Part shown: piece by piece, positions 105 to 24,112 of the stretch | Position numbering within the stretch: position 1 is the stretch's first letter | How the letters are laid out: each line of letters opens with the position of its first letter | IMG/VR virus record: IMGVR_UViG_3300027810_000055 | Coordinates: 1 to 25,855 of that record | DNA from: a virus | Reading direction: 5' to 3' (one strand) | DNA: 25,855 bases | Translations under genes and position numbers: made by a program | The notes under the pieces: model-generated | Database searches by the model: none | Seen by the model: only the letters and a program-made list of their open reading frames with translations | What the model was told of the DNA's origin: nothing

Positions 105-463
105 GCTGTCACCTCCACATCTAATACGCCTGTCTCTTCCATCGCTTCGCTGATGATCTCCTCGCCAACTATATAGACGTACATATTGACAACGTGTTCG
201 GGCTGACTAAAGTCAGTGTAGACCTCGCCAAAATTGTCTTGCTCGTATTCTTTGATGATGTTGATTACATCGAAAGCCATATGACCCAACCAAAATTTTG
301 CTTCGTGAGTACCAGTGATGTAATAGTCATTGTTGAAAATGTCGTGATGCACATCATTAACTTCGGTGAAGTCGTAAGTGTGACCATCAGCGGCTTGCGC
401 TTTGGTTTCGTCAAGCCAATCAATTGCATGGTTCTTAATTTCTTCGCGTTTAAATAAAAGCAT
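101..463 (-). CDS. Conserved phage hypothetical protein, acidic, 120 aa
   Basis: The protein is acidic and soluble, with no signal peptide or membrane segment. Aromatic and acidic patches such as AIDWLDETKA, YDFTEVNDVHHDIF and EYEQDNFGEVYTDF alternate with predicted helices, and I see no known catalytic motif. It looks like a small cytoplasmic phage accessory protein of the kind common in marine phages, but I cannot name a family or function. The start is well supported by TAAGGAGA about seven bases upstream on the minus strand. Its stop overlaps the start of the next leftward gene by ATGA, so the two are probably co-translated. Its orientation, opposite to the structural genes, suggests a separate and possibly early transcription unit. 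Confidence 0.8.
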   Translation of the reverse strand: MLLFKREEIKNHAIDWLDETKAQAADGHTYDFTEVNDVHHDIFNNDYYITGTHEAKFWLGHMAFDVINIIKEYEQDNFGEVYTDFSQPEHVVNMYVYIVGEEIISEAMEETGVLDVEVTA

Positions 464-4407: not shown

Positions 4408-6771
4408 ATGTCACAAGTACCTCCACTAGGATATAAGCGACACCCTTTACCATGTATGCCCCCACTTAAGAATAACGGCAAAAACAAAGGTAAGGTAAAA
4501 ACCCCACTTGCGCTACCGACAAGCTCTGAAAAAGACCCCCTTGTTGGCTATGTTGCAGATGAACTTCAACGCTTAGAAAATAGTTTATCGACCAATCATC
4601 AGGCTATTACTGGCTTTGGTGATGATGTTATCCAGATTAGCCAAGACATCATAAACCTCTCAGGAACTGTGTCCAACAACGAAAGTACTGCCACTGCATC
4701 CATACTCCAACAAGCCATTATTAGAGTGACTGCGGAAGAGGCTTTGGCGCAGTTAATAACCCAGTTGACAGCAACAGTCGCCACTAACGAAAGTACAGGG
4801 GCAGCTTCTGTACTTAGTGTCCAGACGGCTTTTGCAACGGCTACTTCTGCTGTAGCATCCAGTGTCCTTACATTGGAAGCCACTGTGACTTCTAATGATT
4901 CTACGCAGTCGGCTTCCCTTGTAAATGAGCAGATTGCTAGGGCAACTGCTGTCGAAGCGGTAGCCTCAAGTGTTACTACCCTTACTGCTACAGTTTCAAC
5001 AAATGCCAGTAACGCTACTGCACAAGTGGTGGCAGAACAAACAGCTAGGGCAACTGCTGTCGAAGCTGTAGCCTCAAATGTTACTACACTTACTGCTACA
5101 GTTGTGACAAACGCTGCTGCGGCTACTGCACAAGTGGTAGCAGAACAAACAGCAAGAGCCACGGCTATAGGTGCTGTAGCCTCCACTGTGACTACACTTA
5201 CTGCCACAGTTTCGACAAATGCGACTGCGGCTACTGCGGAAGTAACTGCGGAGAGAACAGCTAGGGTGACTGCGGAAGAGGCTTTAGCTTTAGTCAGTAC
5301 AAATTTAGCGGCAACCATTACTACTAACCAGAATACTTTGACAGCATCTATTGCCGCAGAGGCTACCGCTAGAGCTACGGCTACTACTGCACTAGCCCAA
5401 TCTATAACAAACCTTTCGGCTGACGCAGGGGGAACTGACAGTACAACATCAGCGGCTATCACTGCGGAAGAAACAGCAAGGGTATCGGCAGATCAAGCTG
5501 CTGCCGTTATTGTCACTAATCTTACTGCTACAGTCACGACCAATCAAAACACTAACGTAGCGGCCATTTTGGCTGAACAAGTAGCAAGGGCAACTGCGGT
5601 AAGTGCTGTAGCCTCAACTGTTACCAATCTTACTGCTACAGTCACGACCAACCAAGCCACGAATGTAGCGGCCATTGTGGCTGAACAAACAGCTAGGGCA
5701 ACTGCTGTGAATGCGGTAGCTTCAAGTGTTACTACACTCACTGCTACAGTTAATGGTGTGTCTGCGGCAGTCGCAACTGAGGCTTCCGCAAGGGCAGTAG
5801 CTGTTGGTGCTGCATTAGCATCAGCGGCAGGAGCGCAAAGCACAGCAGACGGAAAGATAGATACTTTTTACCAGATAGCCGCCCCGACCAGTGCAAGCGT
5901 AGGCGATCTGTGGTTTGACACCGACGATGGCAATACCCTTTACAGATACGATGGGTCAACATGGATAGTAGCCACAGACCAAGACTTAGGCATAGCCATA
6001 AACGCAGCAGCAGGAGCGCAAGCCACAGCAGACGGTAAAGTAGCTACGTTTTACCAAGCTACACCGCCAACCGCTGAAGGTGACGGTGACCTATGGGTAG
6101 ACACTGATGACGGTAATAAACTTTATCGATGGAGTGGGACTGCGTGGACGATAGTACAAGATACCGCGATCCCTGCATTACAGCTTAAGTATGGTGTGTC
6201 TCTGAATGCCAATGGTTATATAACTGGGTTTTCGCAGAACAATGACGGTAGTACAGGCAAGTTCAGGATAATAGCTGACGATTTTCGCATAATCGACCCT
6301 TCTGCCACTATTGGTGAAGAAGGCACTCAAGTGTTTTCTGTTATCAATGGTGTAGTGTCAATTGCAGGGGATTTAATTGTCGGTGGCTCTATTACCACAG
6401 GTAAAATTGCAGACAATGCAGTCACCAATGTTGCTTCTGTCAATATCGTAGGACTCGCCAATGAAACAGTCACAAGTACTACCCCAGTAACTCTTTTGTC
6501 TCTGACTTTTACAGGGTCGGGTGCTACAGCGGAAATTTTGGCAAACGTAGGTGCAGACGGCTCTGGAAAGAATTACTTGCAGATGTGGTTTTATTTAAAT
6601 GGCTCTCTTGTTAATACGCGGAACTACACCAGTGGTGGTCTTGAAGTATTCCAAACGACTACCCAAGTAGGTGTAAACACCCTAGTAATGAAAGGTCGTA
6701 AGTCCTCCAATACGTCAGGTAATGCCGTAATTACTGAGGCTTACATGCGTGTCTTGGAGTTAAAGAAATGA
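4408..6771 (+). CDS. Long repeat-containing tail fibre with J-like (DUF1983-type) module, 787 aa
   Basis: Residues 1-40 are a basic, Pro-rich leader. From about 50 to 470 the protein is a low-complexity Ala/Thr/Val coiled region built of 36-residue units (108 bp period) around ARATAV.AVAS.VT.LTATV, expected to form a trimeric shaft. Then come two copies of a TFYQ...GDLW.DTDDGN.LYR..G..W motif (about residues 487-520 and 548-582), typical of tail tip fibres. Residues about 588-671 (YGVSLNANGYITGFS, FRIIDPS, INGVVSIAGDLIVGGSI) match the central-fibre module of lambda J-type tip proteins (DUF1983). The last 110 residues look like a beta-sandwich knob, possibly receptor-binding. AGGAGG lies upstream, overlapping the previous gene's stop codon. 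It overlaps the next gene by ATGA. Confidence 0.82.
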   Translation: MSQVPPLGYKRHPLPCMPPLKNNGKNKGKVKTPLALPTSSEKDPLVGYVADELQRLENSLSTNHQAITGFGDDVIQISQDIINLSGTVSNNESTATASILQQAIIRVTAEEALAQLITQLTATVATNESTGAASVLSVQTAFATATSAVASSVLTLEATVTSNDSTQSASLVNEQIARATAVEAVASSVTTLTATVSTNASNATAQVVAEQTARATAVEAVASNVTTLTATVVTNAAAATAQVVAEQTARATAIGAVASTVTTLTATVSTNATAATAEVTAERTARVTAEEALALVSTNLAATITTNQNTLTASIAAEATARATATTALAQSITNLSADAGGTDSTTSAAITAEETARVSADQAAAVIVTNLTATVTTNQNTNVAAILAEQVARATAVSAVASTVTNLTATVTTNQATNVAAIVAEQTARATAVNAVASSVTTLTATVNGVSAAVATEASARAVAVGAALASAAGAQSTADGKIDTFYQIAAPTSASVGDLWFDTDDGNTLYRYDGSTWIVATDQDLGIAINAAAGAQATADGKVATFYQATPPTAEGDGDLWVDTDDGNKLYRWSGTAWTIVQDTAIPALQLKYGVSLNANGYITGFSQNNDGSTGKFRIIADDFRIIDPSATIGEEGTQVFSVINGVVSIAGDLIVGGSITTGKIADNAVTNVASVNIVGLANETVTSTTPVTLLSLTFTGSGATAEILANVGADGSGKNYLQMWFYLNGSLVNTRNYTSGGLEVFQTTTQVGVNTLVMKGRKSSNTSGNAVITEAYMRVLELKK
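4930..5760 (+). repeat. 108-bp coding repeats in the fibre gene
   Basis: Blocks such as GGGCAACTGCTGTCGAAGC recur in register: the first and second are exactly 108 bp apart (4940 and 5048), a third is at 5156, and another pair spaced 108 bp lies near 5588 and 5696. The units between are more diverged. The 36-codon period keeps the frame, so gain or loss of a unit would only change shaft length. Confidence 0.75.
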
Positions 6772-7109
6772 CAAAACAGTACACAGTCATAAATACCAGT
6801 ACGAACGCTGTATTGCGGCATGTAACTTGTCTAGAGAGTGACAAAGAACACAACTGTGCGGTAGGTGAAACTATTGTCGAAGGTATCCTAGAGCCAGAGC
6901 AAGCCACTGACAGTGTAATGGATGTTCTACGTGCCGTAAGAGACGATCTTTTGGCATCTTGTGATTGGACTCAAGTAGCTGACAGTCCTCTCACAGAGTC
7001 CCAGAGAGCAGAATGGGCGACCTATCGGACAGCCCTGCGTGACTTACCTAGCAGTAACTCTTCTACAACATCTATCGAAGATGTGACTTGGCCTTCAGAG
7101 CCTAGCTAA
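6768..7109 (+). CDS. Tail-assembly-chaperone-like protein, 113 aa
   Basis: The C-terminal half contains the signature of the phage tail assembly chaperone family (PF16778-type): AVRDDLLASCDWTQVADSPL, then SQRAEWATYRTALRDLP at about residues 47-89. Such proteins usually follow a tail fibre gene and help it fold or trimerise. The N-terminal half (TVINTSTNAVLRHVTCLESD, GETIVEG) is a small beta domain common in these proteins. The gene starts inside the stop of the long fibre gene (ATGA), so fibre and helper are coupled and the fibre is the likely client. A second, shorter member lies at 23909-24112. Confidence 0.75.
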   Translation: MTKQYTVINTSTNAVLRHVTCLESDKEHNCAVGETIVEGILEPEQATDSVMDVLRAVRDDLLASCDWTQVADSPLTESQRAEWATYRTALRDLPSSNSSTTSIEDVTWPSEPS

Positions 7110-20747: not shown

Positions 20748-22418
20748 ATGGCAAAATCATCATTCTTCAGTGGTACTGGGGTCACCCCCACCGCTACTAA
20801 TGCAATAGAAAACTCTGTCTCAGATGCAGCAACTTCAGCCACAGAGGCAGCTACTTCAGCCACAGCGGCAGCAGCAAGTGCATCAGCGGCTACGCAAGAT
20901 ACTGCGGCAAATACAGCTTCAGCAGCAGCTAGTGAAGTTTCACGTTTAGCTTCAGAAGCGGCTAAAGTAATCGCTGTAAATGCACAGTCAGACATAACAG
21001 CGTCACAGACAGCGGCTCAAGCCTCCCAAGACGCTGCGGCTAATAGTGCAGTCAATAGTTTAGCAAGTAGCGTGACTGCTGCAACAAAAGCCTCAGAAGC
21101 CGCGACATCAGCGACTAACTCAGCAACTTCAGAAAGTACTGCCGCGACAAGCGCAACCGCAAGTGAAGCCTCCAGAGTAGCCTCAGTTGCCGCCAAAACT
21201 GCGGCAGAAACTGCGGAAACAAATTTAGAAACCGCAGAGGCAGCAGCCTTAGTCTCTAAGAATGCCGCAGCCGCTAGTGCGACTGCTAGTGAAGCCTCAA
21301 AAGTTACTAGTGTTGCTAGTGCAGCCACTGCGACAACTAAAGCCTCCGAAGCCTCAACTTCTGAGTCTAACTCAGCGTCTTCAGCTTCAAGTGCATCTAG
21401 TTCAGCCTCTACAGCGACAACTAAAGCAGCCGATAGTGAAACTGCAAGAGCAGCCAGTGTGGTCGCTAAAGATGCATCCGTAGTTGCTAAAAATGCATCC
21501 GTAGTTGCCAAAGATGCTGCGGTTGCAGCCCAAGCTGCTGCGGAAACTGCTGAGACTAATGCAGAGACTGCTGAGACCAATAGTGCTAGTAGTGCCGCAG
21601 CTTCAGCGAACTCAGCGACAGCTTCAGCTAACTCAGCGACTGCTAGTGCAGGCTCTGTAGCAGCCAGTGCAAACAGTGCTTCTACAGCGGCTACAAAAGC
21701 GGCTGAAGCATTAGCGTCACAGAATAGCGCGACAGCTAGTGCGTCAACTGCGTCAACCTCACGAACAGCGGCAGAGTCAGCGCGTGACACTGTGATTGCG
21801 AATATCGCAGGTTTTGACAACATTTATCTTGGAGCTAAGTCTTCAGTACCCACTGCAAATAATAGCGGTGGATCACTGGTCGAAGGTTCGCTGTACTACG
21901 ATGATGTTGGGGATTCAATGAAAGTCTGGGACGGCACTGCTTGGCTAAATGCGTATGCCTCATTATCCGGTGCATTGATCGCAGCAAATAATCTTAATGA
22001 CTTGGCTAATGTAACGACCGCAAGAGCGAGCTTGGGGCTTGGTACGGCAGCGACTACAGATGCTAGTGCCTATGCAACAGCCTCTCAAGCTGACCAAACA
22101 GTTGTAATAACAGGCTCTGGTGCTGCGAGTGTTTCTGGTACTTACCCAAACTTTACGATTGGTAGTACAAACACGACATACACAGGAGGTACTGGCCTAT
22201 CGTTAATAGGTACTGAGTTCACTAACACATCGCCCGACCAAACAGTTGTACTAACAGGGGGAGGTACAACGACAGTCACTGGTACTTATCCTAATTTTGC
22301 AATTTCTAGTAGTACTACGATACCGACAGGCAGTGTGACAACTGCAACACTCTCACCCGCTCTTGCGGCAAAAATCACCGACCTTGAAGATGAAACTTTA
22401 CTAAACCTAGGAGTATAG
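20748..22418 (+). CDS. Ala/Ser/Thr-rich tail fibre, 556 aa
   Basis: A trimeric fibre is expected. The N-terminus (AKSSFFSGTGVTPTATNAIE) is the virion-anchoring end used by marine phage fibres as I recall. Residues about 28-340 are almost only Ala, Ser, Thr, Glu and Lys (for example SATEAATSATAAAASASAAT), a coiled-coil shaft. After NIYLGAKSSVPTANNSGGSL a small module with GSLYYDDVGDSMKVWDGTAW (about 378-397) occurs, then two similar repeats (QTVVITGSGAASVSGTYPNF and QTVVLTGGGTTTVTGTYPNF) near the C-terminus, probably beta-structured spikes. The start follows a weak site 15 bp after the adaptor. The next fibre-tip gene begins five bases after its stop. Confidence 0.85.
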   Translation: MAKSSFFSGTGVTPTATNAIENSVSDAATSATEAATSATAAAASASAATQDTAANTASAAASEVSRLASEAAKVIAVNAQSDITASQTAAQASQDAAANSAVNSLASSVTAATKASEAATSATNSATSESTAATSATASEASRVASVAAKTAAETAETNLETAEAAALVSKNAAAASATASEASKVTSVASAATATTKASEASTSESNSASSASSASSSASTATTKAADSETARAASVVAKDASVVAKNASVVAKDAAVAAQAAAETAETNAETAETNSASSAAASANSATASANSATASAGSVAASANSASTAATKAAEALASQNSATASASTASTSRTAAESARDTVIANIAGFDNIYLGAKSSVPTANNSGGSLVEGSLYYDDVGDSMKVWDGTAWLNAYASLSGALIAANNLNDLANVTTARASLGLGTAATTDASAYATASQADQTVVITGSGAASVSGTYPNFTIGSTNTTYTGGTGLSLIGTEFTNTSPDQTVVLTGGGTTTVTGTYPNFAISSSTTIPTGSVTTATLSPALAAKITDLEDETLLNLGV

Positions 22419-22422
22419 CCGT

Positions 22423-22965
22423 ATGGCAGTACAAAATAGTAACTTTAACACCCTGATAACGGCTATCGACACCAAAGCACAGTCTTTGGCGGCCTCGACA
22501 TCAGACCCCAAAGACCTTGTTTATCTTGGTAAAACACTTGAGGCACTAAACGTCACAGCTACTGTGACAGATATCATCAACACTGGTGATACACAAGTAG
22601 GTCTTGTAACGACACAAGGCACTACACAGGTTGGCAACGTCAACACTGCCGGTACTACTCAGCTTGCCGCTGTCAATGCTGTTGCATATCCGACCGGCAC
22701 TACGACAGCCGTAAATAAGACGCTTTTAAACAACGAGCATGTACTTGTGACCGCTGCTGCAAAAACGATGACGCTACCCACTGGTACAGCCGGTGGCTCT
22801 AAAGTGTTTATTACTGTGGGTAACTTTATTAACACTGTCGTAGCTCCTGCTACTGGTCAGAAGATTCAAGGTTTAGCCGCAAATACTACACTGGTACTAG
22901 ACAAACTTAACGTCACTGTGCGGTTTCAGTATCACTCAGATGCCGCAGGATGGCGCATTCATTAA
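22423..22965 (+). CDS. Tail fibre tip / receptor-binding-like protein, 180 aa
   Basis: An acidic-to-neutral, Thr/Val/Ala-rich protein. Residues 1-30 are a helix (FNTLITAIDTKAQSLAAST), 40-95 contain short repeats (TGDTQVGLVTTQGTTQVGNV, NTAGTTQLAAV), and the C-terminal part (NNEHVLVTAAAKTMTLPTGT, GSKVFITVGNFINTVV, LDKLNVTVRFQYHSDAAGW) resembles the small beta-barrel often placed at the end of marine phage fibres. It has AGGAG in the tail of the preceding gene and follows the fibre gene directly, so it is probably an additional fibre subunit or tip. Confidence 0.72.
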   Translation: MAVQNSNFNTLITAIDTKAQSLAASTSDPKDLVYLGKTLEALNVTATVTDIINTGDTQVGLVTTQGTTQVGNVNTAGTTQLAAVNAVAYPTGTTTAVNKTLLNNEHVLVTAAAKTMTLPTGTAGGSKVFITVGNFINTVVAPATGQKIQGLAANTTLVLDKLNVTVRFQYHSDAAGWRIH

Positions 22966-23009
22966 ACAACGACATTACCAACAACTAATTTTTTTGGAGT
23001 AAACAACAA

Positions 23010-23909
23010 ATGGCGAATTTAACTGATTTTTTCAGTTCTAAAGGTGATACAGCCTCAATAATTAACGAGGTAATATTTTTAAAAGATACCGTTGATGTCC
23101 TTACAACGGCTGACGATAGAGTGTACTTAAAAGGTGGGGTGTATGAGACAGATTTGACTCTTTACCCTGACGCTAGTACTACGGATATTTACGCAGGAAA
23201 TAATTTTAGTTTTGCGACTCAGACTACTTACGTTAACGGGATGTGTTCTGATGGCACACATCTTTACCTTGTTAATCAAAACGAGGACAAGGTATACAAA
23301 TATACAAACGCAGGCGTATATGTTGCTGTCTATGACACGACCGGTACTAGTACTCCTTATGCAATTGAGTGGGATGGCACAAGTTTTTGGATAGGAGATA
23401 ACTATCAAGATGTCCGTCAATACGATACGTCGTTTAATTTAATAGGCTCAACTATCGACTTGGCGGCTCAACTTAATACTGACGGCATAAAGGGTATTGC
23501 GTGGGATGGAACGCATTTCTACGTGCTGACTTACTCGCGCACAGTATTTAAATATAGCTCGTCGTGGGTTTATACAAGTGTAGCCTTTGGTTCAGGTGGG
23601 CAAACTGGTTATGTTGACGGTATAACCTCTGACGGTACACACATTTATGTATATCGCGGATATAGCACTTGGAGCGTAGCTAAATGGGACAGCGCAGGTA
23701 ATTATATTGGCGTAGCGTACAGCATACCTAGTGGAGAAGGAGGCTATAACGGAACACTCGCATGGGATGGCACTAATTTTAGAATAGCTGACCCTAGTAC
23801 TGATTTAGTTATAAAAATAGAGCCTGCAATTGGCATAGATAATTATACATACGGTTATAGCGGTGTTGGTCAAGTCGGTGAAGGACAAAACTACGTGAGG
23901 GTAAAATAA
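23010..23909 (+). CDS. Predicted five-bladed beta-propeller tail/receptor-binding protein, 299 aa
   Basis: Five regularly spaced (S/W)DGT motifs occur at residues 80, 121, 165, 207 and 252 (spacing 41-45), each followed by a strand of the type H.Y or FW (SDGTHLYLVN, WDGTSFWIGD, WDGTHFYVLT, SDGTHIYVYR, WDGTNFRIAD). This is the pattern of a beta-propeller with one blade per motif. The N-terminal 75 residues (MANLTDFFSSKGDTASIINE) look like a fibre attachment segment, and the C-terminus is Gly/Tyr-rich. No signal peptide. Position, after two fibre genes and before a tail-chaperone-like gene, makes it a candidate receptor-binding tip. The gene looks somewhat more AT-rich than its neighbours, hinting at exchange. 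Its stop shares one base with the next start. Confidence 0.75.
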   Translation: MANLTDFFSSKGDTASIINEVIFLKDTVDVLTTADDRVYLKGGVYETDLTLYPDASTTDIYAGNNFSFATQTTYVNGMCSDGTHLYLVNQNEDKVYKYTNAGVYVAVYDTTGTSTPYAIEWDGTSFWIGDNYQDVRQYDTSFNLIGSTIDLAAQLNTDGIKGIAWDGTHFYVLTYSRTVFKYSSSWVYTSVAFGSGGQTGYVDGITSDGTHIYVYRGYSTWSVAKWDSAGNYIGVAYSIPSGEGGYNGTLAWDGTNFRIADPSTDLVIKIEPAIGIDNYTYGYSGVGQVGEGQNYVRVK

Positions 23910-24112
23910 TGGCTTTAATATACGAAGAAGATTTAATAACACCAGAACAGAAAGCGCGTACATGGCGTGACGCAGAACTAACGCGCACTGACATAGCCGC
24001 TACCGTTTCTGACTACCCTAATGCAGAGGCTATCTTAGTCTACCGTACAGCACTACGGAACTGGCCTTCTACTGAAGACTTTCCTGCTACACGGCCTGTC
24101 CTAGGGGGATAA
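23909..24112 (+). CDS. Second tail-assembly-chaperone-like protein, 67 aa
   Basis: A short PF16778-type protein: TWRDAELTRTDIAATVSDYP, then ILVYRTALRNWPSTEDFPAT, matching the RD.EL..TD......YP.....YR.ALR.WPST..FP pattern. It lacks the N-terminal beta domain of the 6768-7109 protein. It starts in the stop codon of the propeller gene (TAATG), with GAGGG just upstream, so it is probably its dedicated helper. Together the two copies suggest each fibre set has its own assembly factor. Confidence 0.78.
   Translation: MALIYEEDLITPEQKARTWRDAELTRTDIAATVSDYPNAEAILVYRTALRNWPSTEDFPATRPVLGG

Follow-up and report, generated by a model that had tools for sequence, protein, structure and literature searches.

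Five-bladed beta-propellers have been described in viral receptor-binding proteins: phi11 Gp45 contains one as the platform of a receptor-binding protein (PMC4901313), and PRD1 P2, as cited in that paper, has a distorted five-bladed propeller head. Propeller-based phage receptor-binding proteins, called uncommon in the initial annotation of the locus analyzed here, are thus already established. Among T2-like phages, exchange of the gp38 N-terminus rescued a cap that was incompatible with its gp37 (PMC12892980), and in the Pam3 fibre, a chaperone wraps around the TNF-like and glycine-rich regions at the distal end (PMC9608196). In cobaviruses, the stretch that follows the terminase varies all the way to the genome end and holds genes for fibres, fibre connectors, or tail assembly proteins (PMC6775973). 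Here, we compare with these systems a probable tail-fibre tip gene of a marine phage, found in a 25,855-base IMG/VR virus record that we refer to as the window (Table 1).

Table 1. Features of the proposed tip locus, with positions numbered along the window and residues along the tip protein
Feature	Position	Strand	Remarks
Tail-fibre stem, 556 aa, Ala/Ser-rich, coiled-coil-like, then fibre domain	20748..22418	+	phrog_22284, phrog_38058
Adapter/distal stem, 180 aa, last ~75 aa a domain ending ..GWRIH	22423..22965	+	Proposed tip socket
Ribosome-binding site GGAG	22996..22999	+	10 nt 5' of tip ATG; same in L180
Tip protein with predicted five-bladed beta-propeller head, 299 aa	23010..23909	+	Repeats, AlphaFold2, Foldseek
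Start tag MANLTDFF, constant 8 residues, left exchange boundary	23010..23033	+	DNA identical to L180
Exchanged segment	23034..24059	+	Without counterpart in L180; blastn and junction alignments
Base, residues 16-56 (..DRVYLKGGV.ETDLT.YPDA)	23055..23177	+	Common to non-WDGT heads; entropy 1.62
Propeller (predicted), residues 57-274	23178..23831	+	AlphaFold2/DSSP; Foldseek to solved propellers
Propeller blades, residues 77-109, 116-150, 160-194, 202-238, 249-274			
Conserved C-terminal strand ..QNYVRVK (residues 291-299) and stop	23880..23909	+	Alignment A2; model strand 293-297
Tail-fibre assembly chaperone, 67 aa	23909..24112	+	PF16778, phrog_4628; start overlaps tip stop by one base

The tip protein contains five [SW]DGT motifs, at residues 80, 121, 165, 207, and 252, with spacings of 41, 44, 42, and 45 residues. 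Across 200,000 shuffles of the protein, the highest motif count was three, reached once, and only two further [SW]DGT occur outside the ORF in all six frames of the window. Likeness among the five repeat units extends well past the motif: their mean pairwise identity is 30%, and their mean alignment score is 26.3, compared with -13.3 for shuffled units (sd 2.9, max -5.3). In relatives such as L014 and L051, the blades are 63-67% identical among themselves, the window protein being a diverged member. We found no significant Pfam, PHROG, or PDB sequence match for the window protein and no meaningful one for its relatives; PF21311 (Phage_RBD_prop, the phi11 type) gave no match to the window protein at E<=1, and its best value among the relatives, E 1.8, fails the cut-off. 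Searching 50,697 phage records by tblastn with the window protein yielded no match, and a genome scan found only distant repeat-bearing relatives, in bacterial or archaeal contigs.

The protein is predicted to fold as a five-bladed beta-propeller. An AlphaFold2 monomer model based on 31 aligned sequences (pLDDT 86.7, pTM 0.83), analyzed with DSSP, has a closed ring of five four-stranded blades with velcro closure, in which strand 57-67 is the outer strand that closes blade 5. Foldseek comparison of the model with solved structures returned propellers (E 6e-11), and in a viral structure library Lentibacter phage ICBM2 gp51 was among the top matches (TMq 0.61). The initial annotation had inferred such a fold from five motifs 41-45 residues apart and had proposed an AlphaFold model as a check; the sequence and shuffles agree with the motif pattern, and the model and Foldseek with the fold. 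It had also described the gene as compositionally distinct, a description that the codon usage contradicts. GC content is 41% versus ~45%, yet GC3 is 0.34 (0.31-0.50 in other genes) and the choice among synonymous codons is not unusual (z = -0.55), which rules out compositional foreignness and indicates that the low GC reflects amino-acid make-up.

The top TM-score among the PDB matches listed belonged to glutaminyl cyclase 3mbr (TMq 0.58, TMt 0.71), and five-bladed propellers include glycoside hydrolases, both of which would suit a fibre enzyme (a glycan hydrolase- or lyase-like depolymerase, or a cyclase-like protein) rather than a pure binder. We consider an enzymatic head unlikely: no Pfam enzyme family scored above cut-off for the tip or its relatives, the residues invariant across 31 relatives (G43, P53, A55, G167, T168, and G275) are structural, with no invariant acidic set, and the phi11 binding propeller likewise finds its best structural match in glutamine cyclotransferase (PMC4901313).

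The window encodes a terminase, portal, scaffold, SU10-type major capsid protein and adaptor, fibre genes, and an endolysin; given the SU10-type head genes, the phage is probably short-tailed. The stem matches the PHROG tail fibre families phrog_22284 (E 2e-22) and phrog_38058, and a stretch of it resembles the tail fibres of roseophage SIO1 and cobaviruses. Directly downstream of the tip, and overlapping it by one base, the chaperone gene matches PF16778 (Phage_tail_APC, E 6.9e-10) and the PHROG tail fibre assembly family phrog_4628 (E 8e-10); we found no mention of PF16778 in the literature searched. The arrangement recurs among 74 distinct tips retrieved via the N-terminal base, 63 with a propeller head and 11 without: a chaperone lies directly downstream of 49 of 62 propeller tips and of all 11 other-head tips, and an adapter-type C-terminal domain lies upstream of 46/60 and 6/9, respectively. 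Several phages carry two or three tip cassettes in tandem. Elsewhere in the window, at 4408-7109, a second fibre set comprises a 787-aa fibre protein followed by its own 113-aa tail-fibre assembly chaperone.

Because the SU10 nozzle contains a beta-propeller (PMC9509320) and the window encodes a capsid protein and an adaptor of the SU10 type, the propeller might also be a structural tail part that binds no receptor, such as an SU10/T7-like nozzle or hub propeller or a fibre connector. That propeller, however, is seven-bladed and interrupted by inserted nozzle domains (PMC9509320), whereas the predicted tip propeller is five-bladed, small, and uninterrupted, within a 299-aa protein without insertions rather than a large subunit with a platform and inserted nozzle domains. 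Moreover, none of 73 adaptor-retrieved loci, many of which end before the tip, carries a propeller, and neither does the record of the sister contig L180, whose capsid protein and adaptor are 97-99% identical to those of the window. A structural role of this kind is therefore very improbable.

The strongest evidence for a tip function is the replacement seen in L180. The two phages are closely related upstream of the tip (identity 97% for the major capsid protein, 98% for 19810, 99% for the adaptor, 77% for the stem, and 92% for the adapter 22423) and downstream of it (95% for 24116, 93% for the endolysin, and 99% for 24788). DNA identity runs to base 23033, where tip codon 8 ends, and resumes at base 24060, in the last codons of the chaperone gene, with flanks 95.4% and 94.0% identical at the nucleotide level. 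Between these junctions lie 1,026 bp in the window and 858 bp in L180, encoding unrelated tips of 299 and 204 aa and differing chaperones that both match PF16778; no propeller is found elsewhere in the L180 record. For the 204-aa tip in the propeller's place (L180 3870-4484), the sole Pfam hit is weak (E 0.033) and points to a polysaccharide-lyase-like core.

The L180 junctions sit in shared sequence, where assemblers can cross over, and L180 is a single metagenomic contig, so the exchange might be taken for a misassembly there, and the propeller for nothing more than a fibre gene that is diverging. We find this hardly credible: a separate contig, L001, repeats the window arrangement at 99-100%, and with L180 diverging from the window by 4-6% on either flank, the assembler would have had to cross over falsely twice to bring in another cassette. 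At other loci, adapters 59-68% identical to 22423 precede a third tip type of 476-484 aa that starts with MSNLTDFF. Conversely, the nearest other propeller (53% identity) occurs in L002/L003, whose adaptor is only 27% identical to that of the window, and in L016 the capsid protein is 73% identical but the propeller only 39%. Within tips, the DNA of L026 tip 2 and L030 tip 1 is 96-100% identical over residues 125-199 and 95% over 200-224, compared with 52-64% over residues 1-99 and 52-79% for the flanks of the 125-224 stretch as a whole; the propeller blades themselves therefore recombine.

Cassette exchange was anticipated in part. The initial annotation had placed the gene among the fibre genes, had proposed a swapped module with an N-terminal attachment segment, and had suggested looking for its first 75 residues joined to different C-terminal domains. 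The tip does sit between stem/adapter and tail-fibre chaperone, and the L180 comparison, with near-identical flanks around an unrelated tip and chaperone, supports the swap. A constant start is likewise present, though in the observed exchange it spans 8 residues, not 75. The search for shared N-termini was positive: an alternative-head family (L161 3001-4047, L155, L167, and L135; 349-358 aa) has the base without WDGT repeats, and hhalign matched it to the tip family over the N-terminal part only (prob 98.7, E 4e-16). The L161 protein gave no Pfam match, and the AlphaFold2 model of this family (A5) was poor (pLDDT 49.5). Glycine-rich heads (PF21722) occupy the same kind of slot. In related phages, the shared start/base and chaperone come with heads of several sorts: propeller, glycine-rich, or unclassified.

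Two loci, L162 (510-5907) and L145, have three tip cassettes in tandem, each with its own adapter; in L162, the chaperone position behind the 476-aa MSNLTDFF tip, itself without Pfam match, is taken by a protein of 144 aa. At 88 of 88 distinct junctions, the class of the tip's start tag fits the class of the upstream adapter C-terminus; no p-value is attached, because the junctions share ancestry and N-terminal patterns served in part to collect them. MAIxLG begins the tip after each of the 42 adapters ending in [KER]EL, M(A/S)NLTDFF the tip after each of the three ending in GWRxx, and an MSN-type start the tip after each of the remaining 43. Head types cut across these tag classes: MAIxLG tags precede 39 propeller heads and one each of alternative, glycine-rich, and new heads, while MSN-type tags precede 8 propeller, 7 alternative, and 28 glycine-rich heads. 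Tips with a body typical of the other tag (L021; L124, L130, L132, and L135) still carry a tag that fits their adapter. Tag and adapter end are near each other on the DNA, so linkage accounts for part of this pairing; the gp38 N-terminus rescue (PMC12892980) is a direct precedent for a matched attachment segment. We think the chances are about even that tag and adapter C-terminus form matched plug-and-socket classes (..[KER]EL with MAIxLG; ..GWVMS, ..SWVFI, and similar with MSNxTDxI; ..GWRxx with M(A/S)NLTDFF), by which tandem-cassette marine phages trade heads without mixing slots. If so, separate tip slots would be kept while propeller, glycine-rich, and other heads are exchanged. The pairing also yields a rule, open to testing, for matching tips to fibres.

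Variability is unevenly distributed over the predicted propeller. With loop sides assigned from strand order, both chain ends exit on the side of loops AB and CD, with BC and DA opposite; mean column entropy is 1.32 on the AB/CD side and 2.57 on the BC/DA side (Mann-Whitney p 2e-12), a contrast that is partly structural conservation of the DGT turn and that may be inflated by conserved AB turns (WDGT) kept for folding alone. The contrast agrees with conservation of the attachment side and variation of the side turned outward.

Our computations show how the genes are ordered, the repeat and the fold predicted for it, the replaced cassette, the match of tags to adapters, and the difference in variability between the two faces; docking on the adapter, receptor binding, and an effect on host range we infer. 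The protein is probably a distal tail-fibre tip (adhesin) with a propeller head, chaperone-assisted and exchanged with its chaperone as one cassette, which would alter host specificity. The start tag, the small base, and the C-terminal strand would dock the tip on the adapter/stem encoded upstream, at its C-terminal domain, and the opposite face of the propeller would contact the host surface, probably a glycan or an outer-membrane component. The small protein encoded directly downstream would chaperone folding or assembly of the tip. The tip/chaperone cassette would be swapped by recombination in two conserved stretches, the tag and the 3' end of the chaperone gene, and such a swap may change host specificity.

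The tip looks like a plug-in host-recognition part traded among phages. Phage-host pairing for marine bacteria is mostly unknown, and a constant tag and adapter end make host-recognition tips findable in uncultured phages, even with family-less heads; near-identical phages with different tips amount to a natural experiment on host range.

Related repeats also occur in other proteins. Very long ORFs of 954 and 2994 aa (L055 4777-7641 and L056 508-9492) carry related propeller repeats outside such cassettes, a related repeat protein (39% identity; L174 5005-5652) lies on a Pseudoalteromonas denitrificans contig, possibly a prophage, and Roseobacter phage CRP-9 gp42 is a 1241-aa hypothetical protein with related repeats (L069 3001-6726). 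The cultured cobavirus ICBM2 (PMC6775973), whose laboratory host is Lentibacter sp. SH36, has a row of tip and chaperone pairs, among them gp51, which shares with the window tip five similar repeats and a tail assembly chaperone of its own downstream (gp50) but differs in its N-terminus, the ~27-29% identity covering the repeats only. In the parts of the literature searched, we found no virion proteomics of cultured relatives.

Five-bladed propellers in phage receptor binding and shared fibre and chaperone modules are known already (PMC4901313, PMC10579305); new here are the sequence family, its deployment as a small tip in its own right, an exchange resolved to the base, and the classes of tag and adapter. 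Like phi11 Gp45, the tip model has five four-stranded blades with an N-terminal strand velcro (PMC4901313), and a glutamine cyclotransferase/cyclase leads the structural matches of both; Gp45, however, sits as a trimer on a siphophage baseplate and unites stem, propeller, and tower in a single chain, whereas in the window a small gene encodes the tip by itself and a dedicated chaperone gene follows. PRD1 P2, likened here by its description in PMC4901313, belongs to an unrelated virus type. Alteromonas phages A5 and V22 have a fibre and cognate chaperone unit common to distantly related marine phages, in which a propeller did not come up (PMC10579305); the window unit, by contrast, consists of tip and chaperone, leaves most of the stem in place, and is seen exchanged between near-identical phages. 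Gp38 of T2, PP01, and S16 is a separate small fibre-end protein with an N-terminus that must match the preceding fibre protein and an exchangeable head. The sequence pairing of tag and adapter and the L180 exchange agree with a similar design for the window tip, and glycine-rich heads occupy the same kind of slot among window-type tips, although the gp38 head is a polyglycine sandwich and the window tip has a propeller and an extra chaperone gene after it. By this analogy, the window tip may represent a sequence family that acts in the manner of the T2/S16 gp38 cap.
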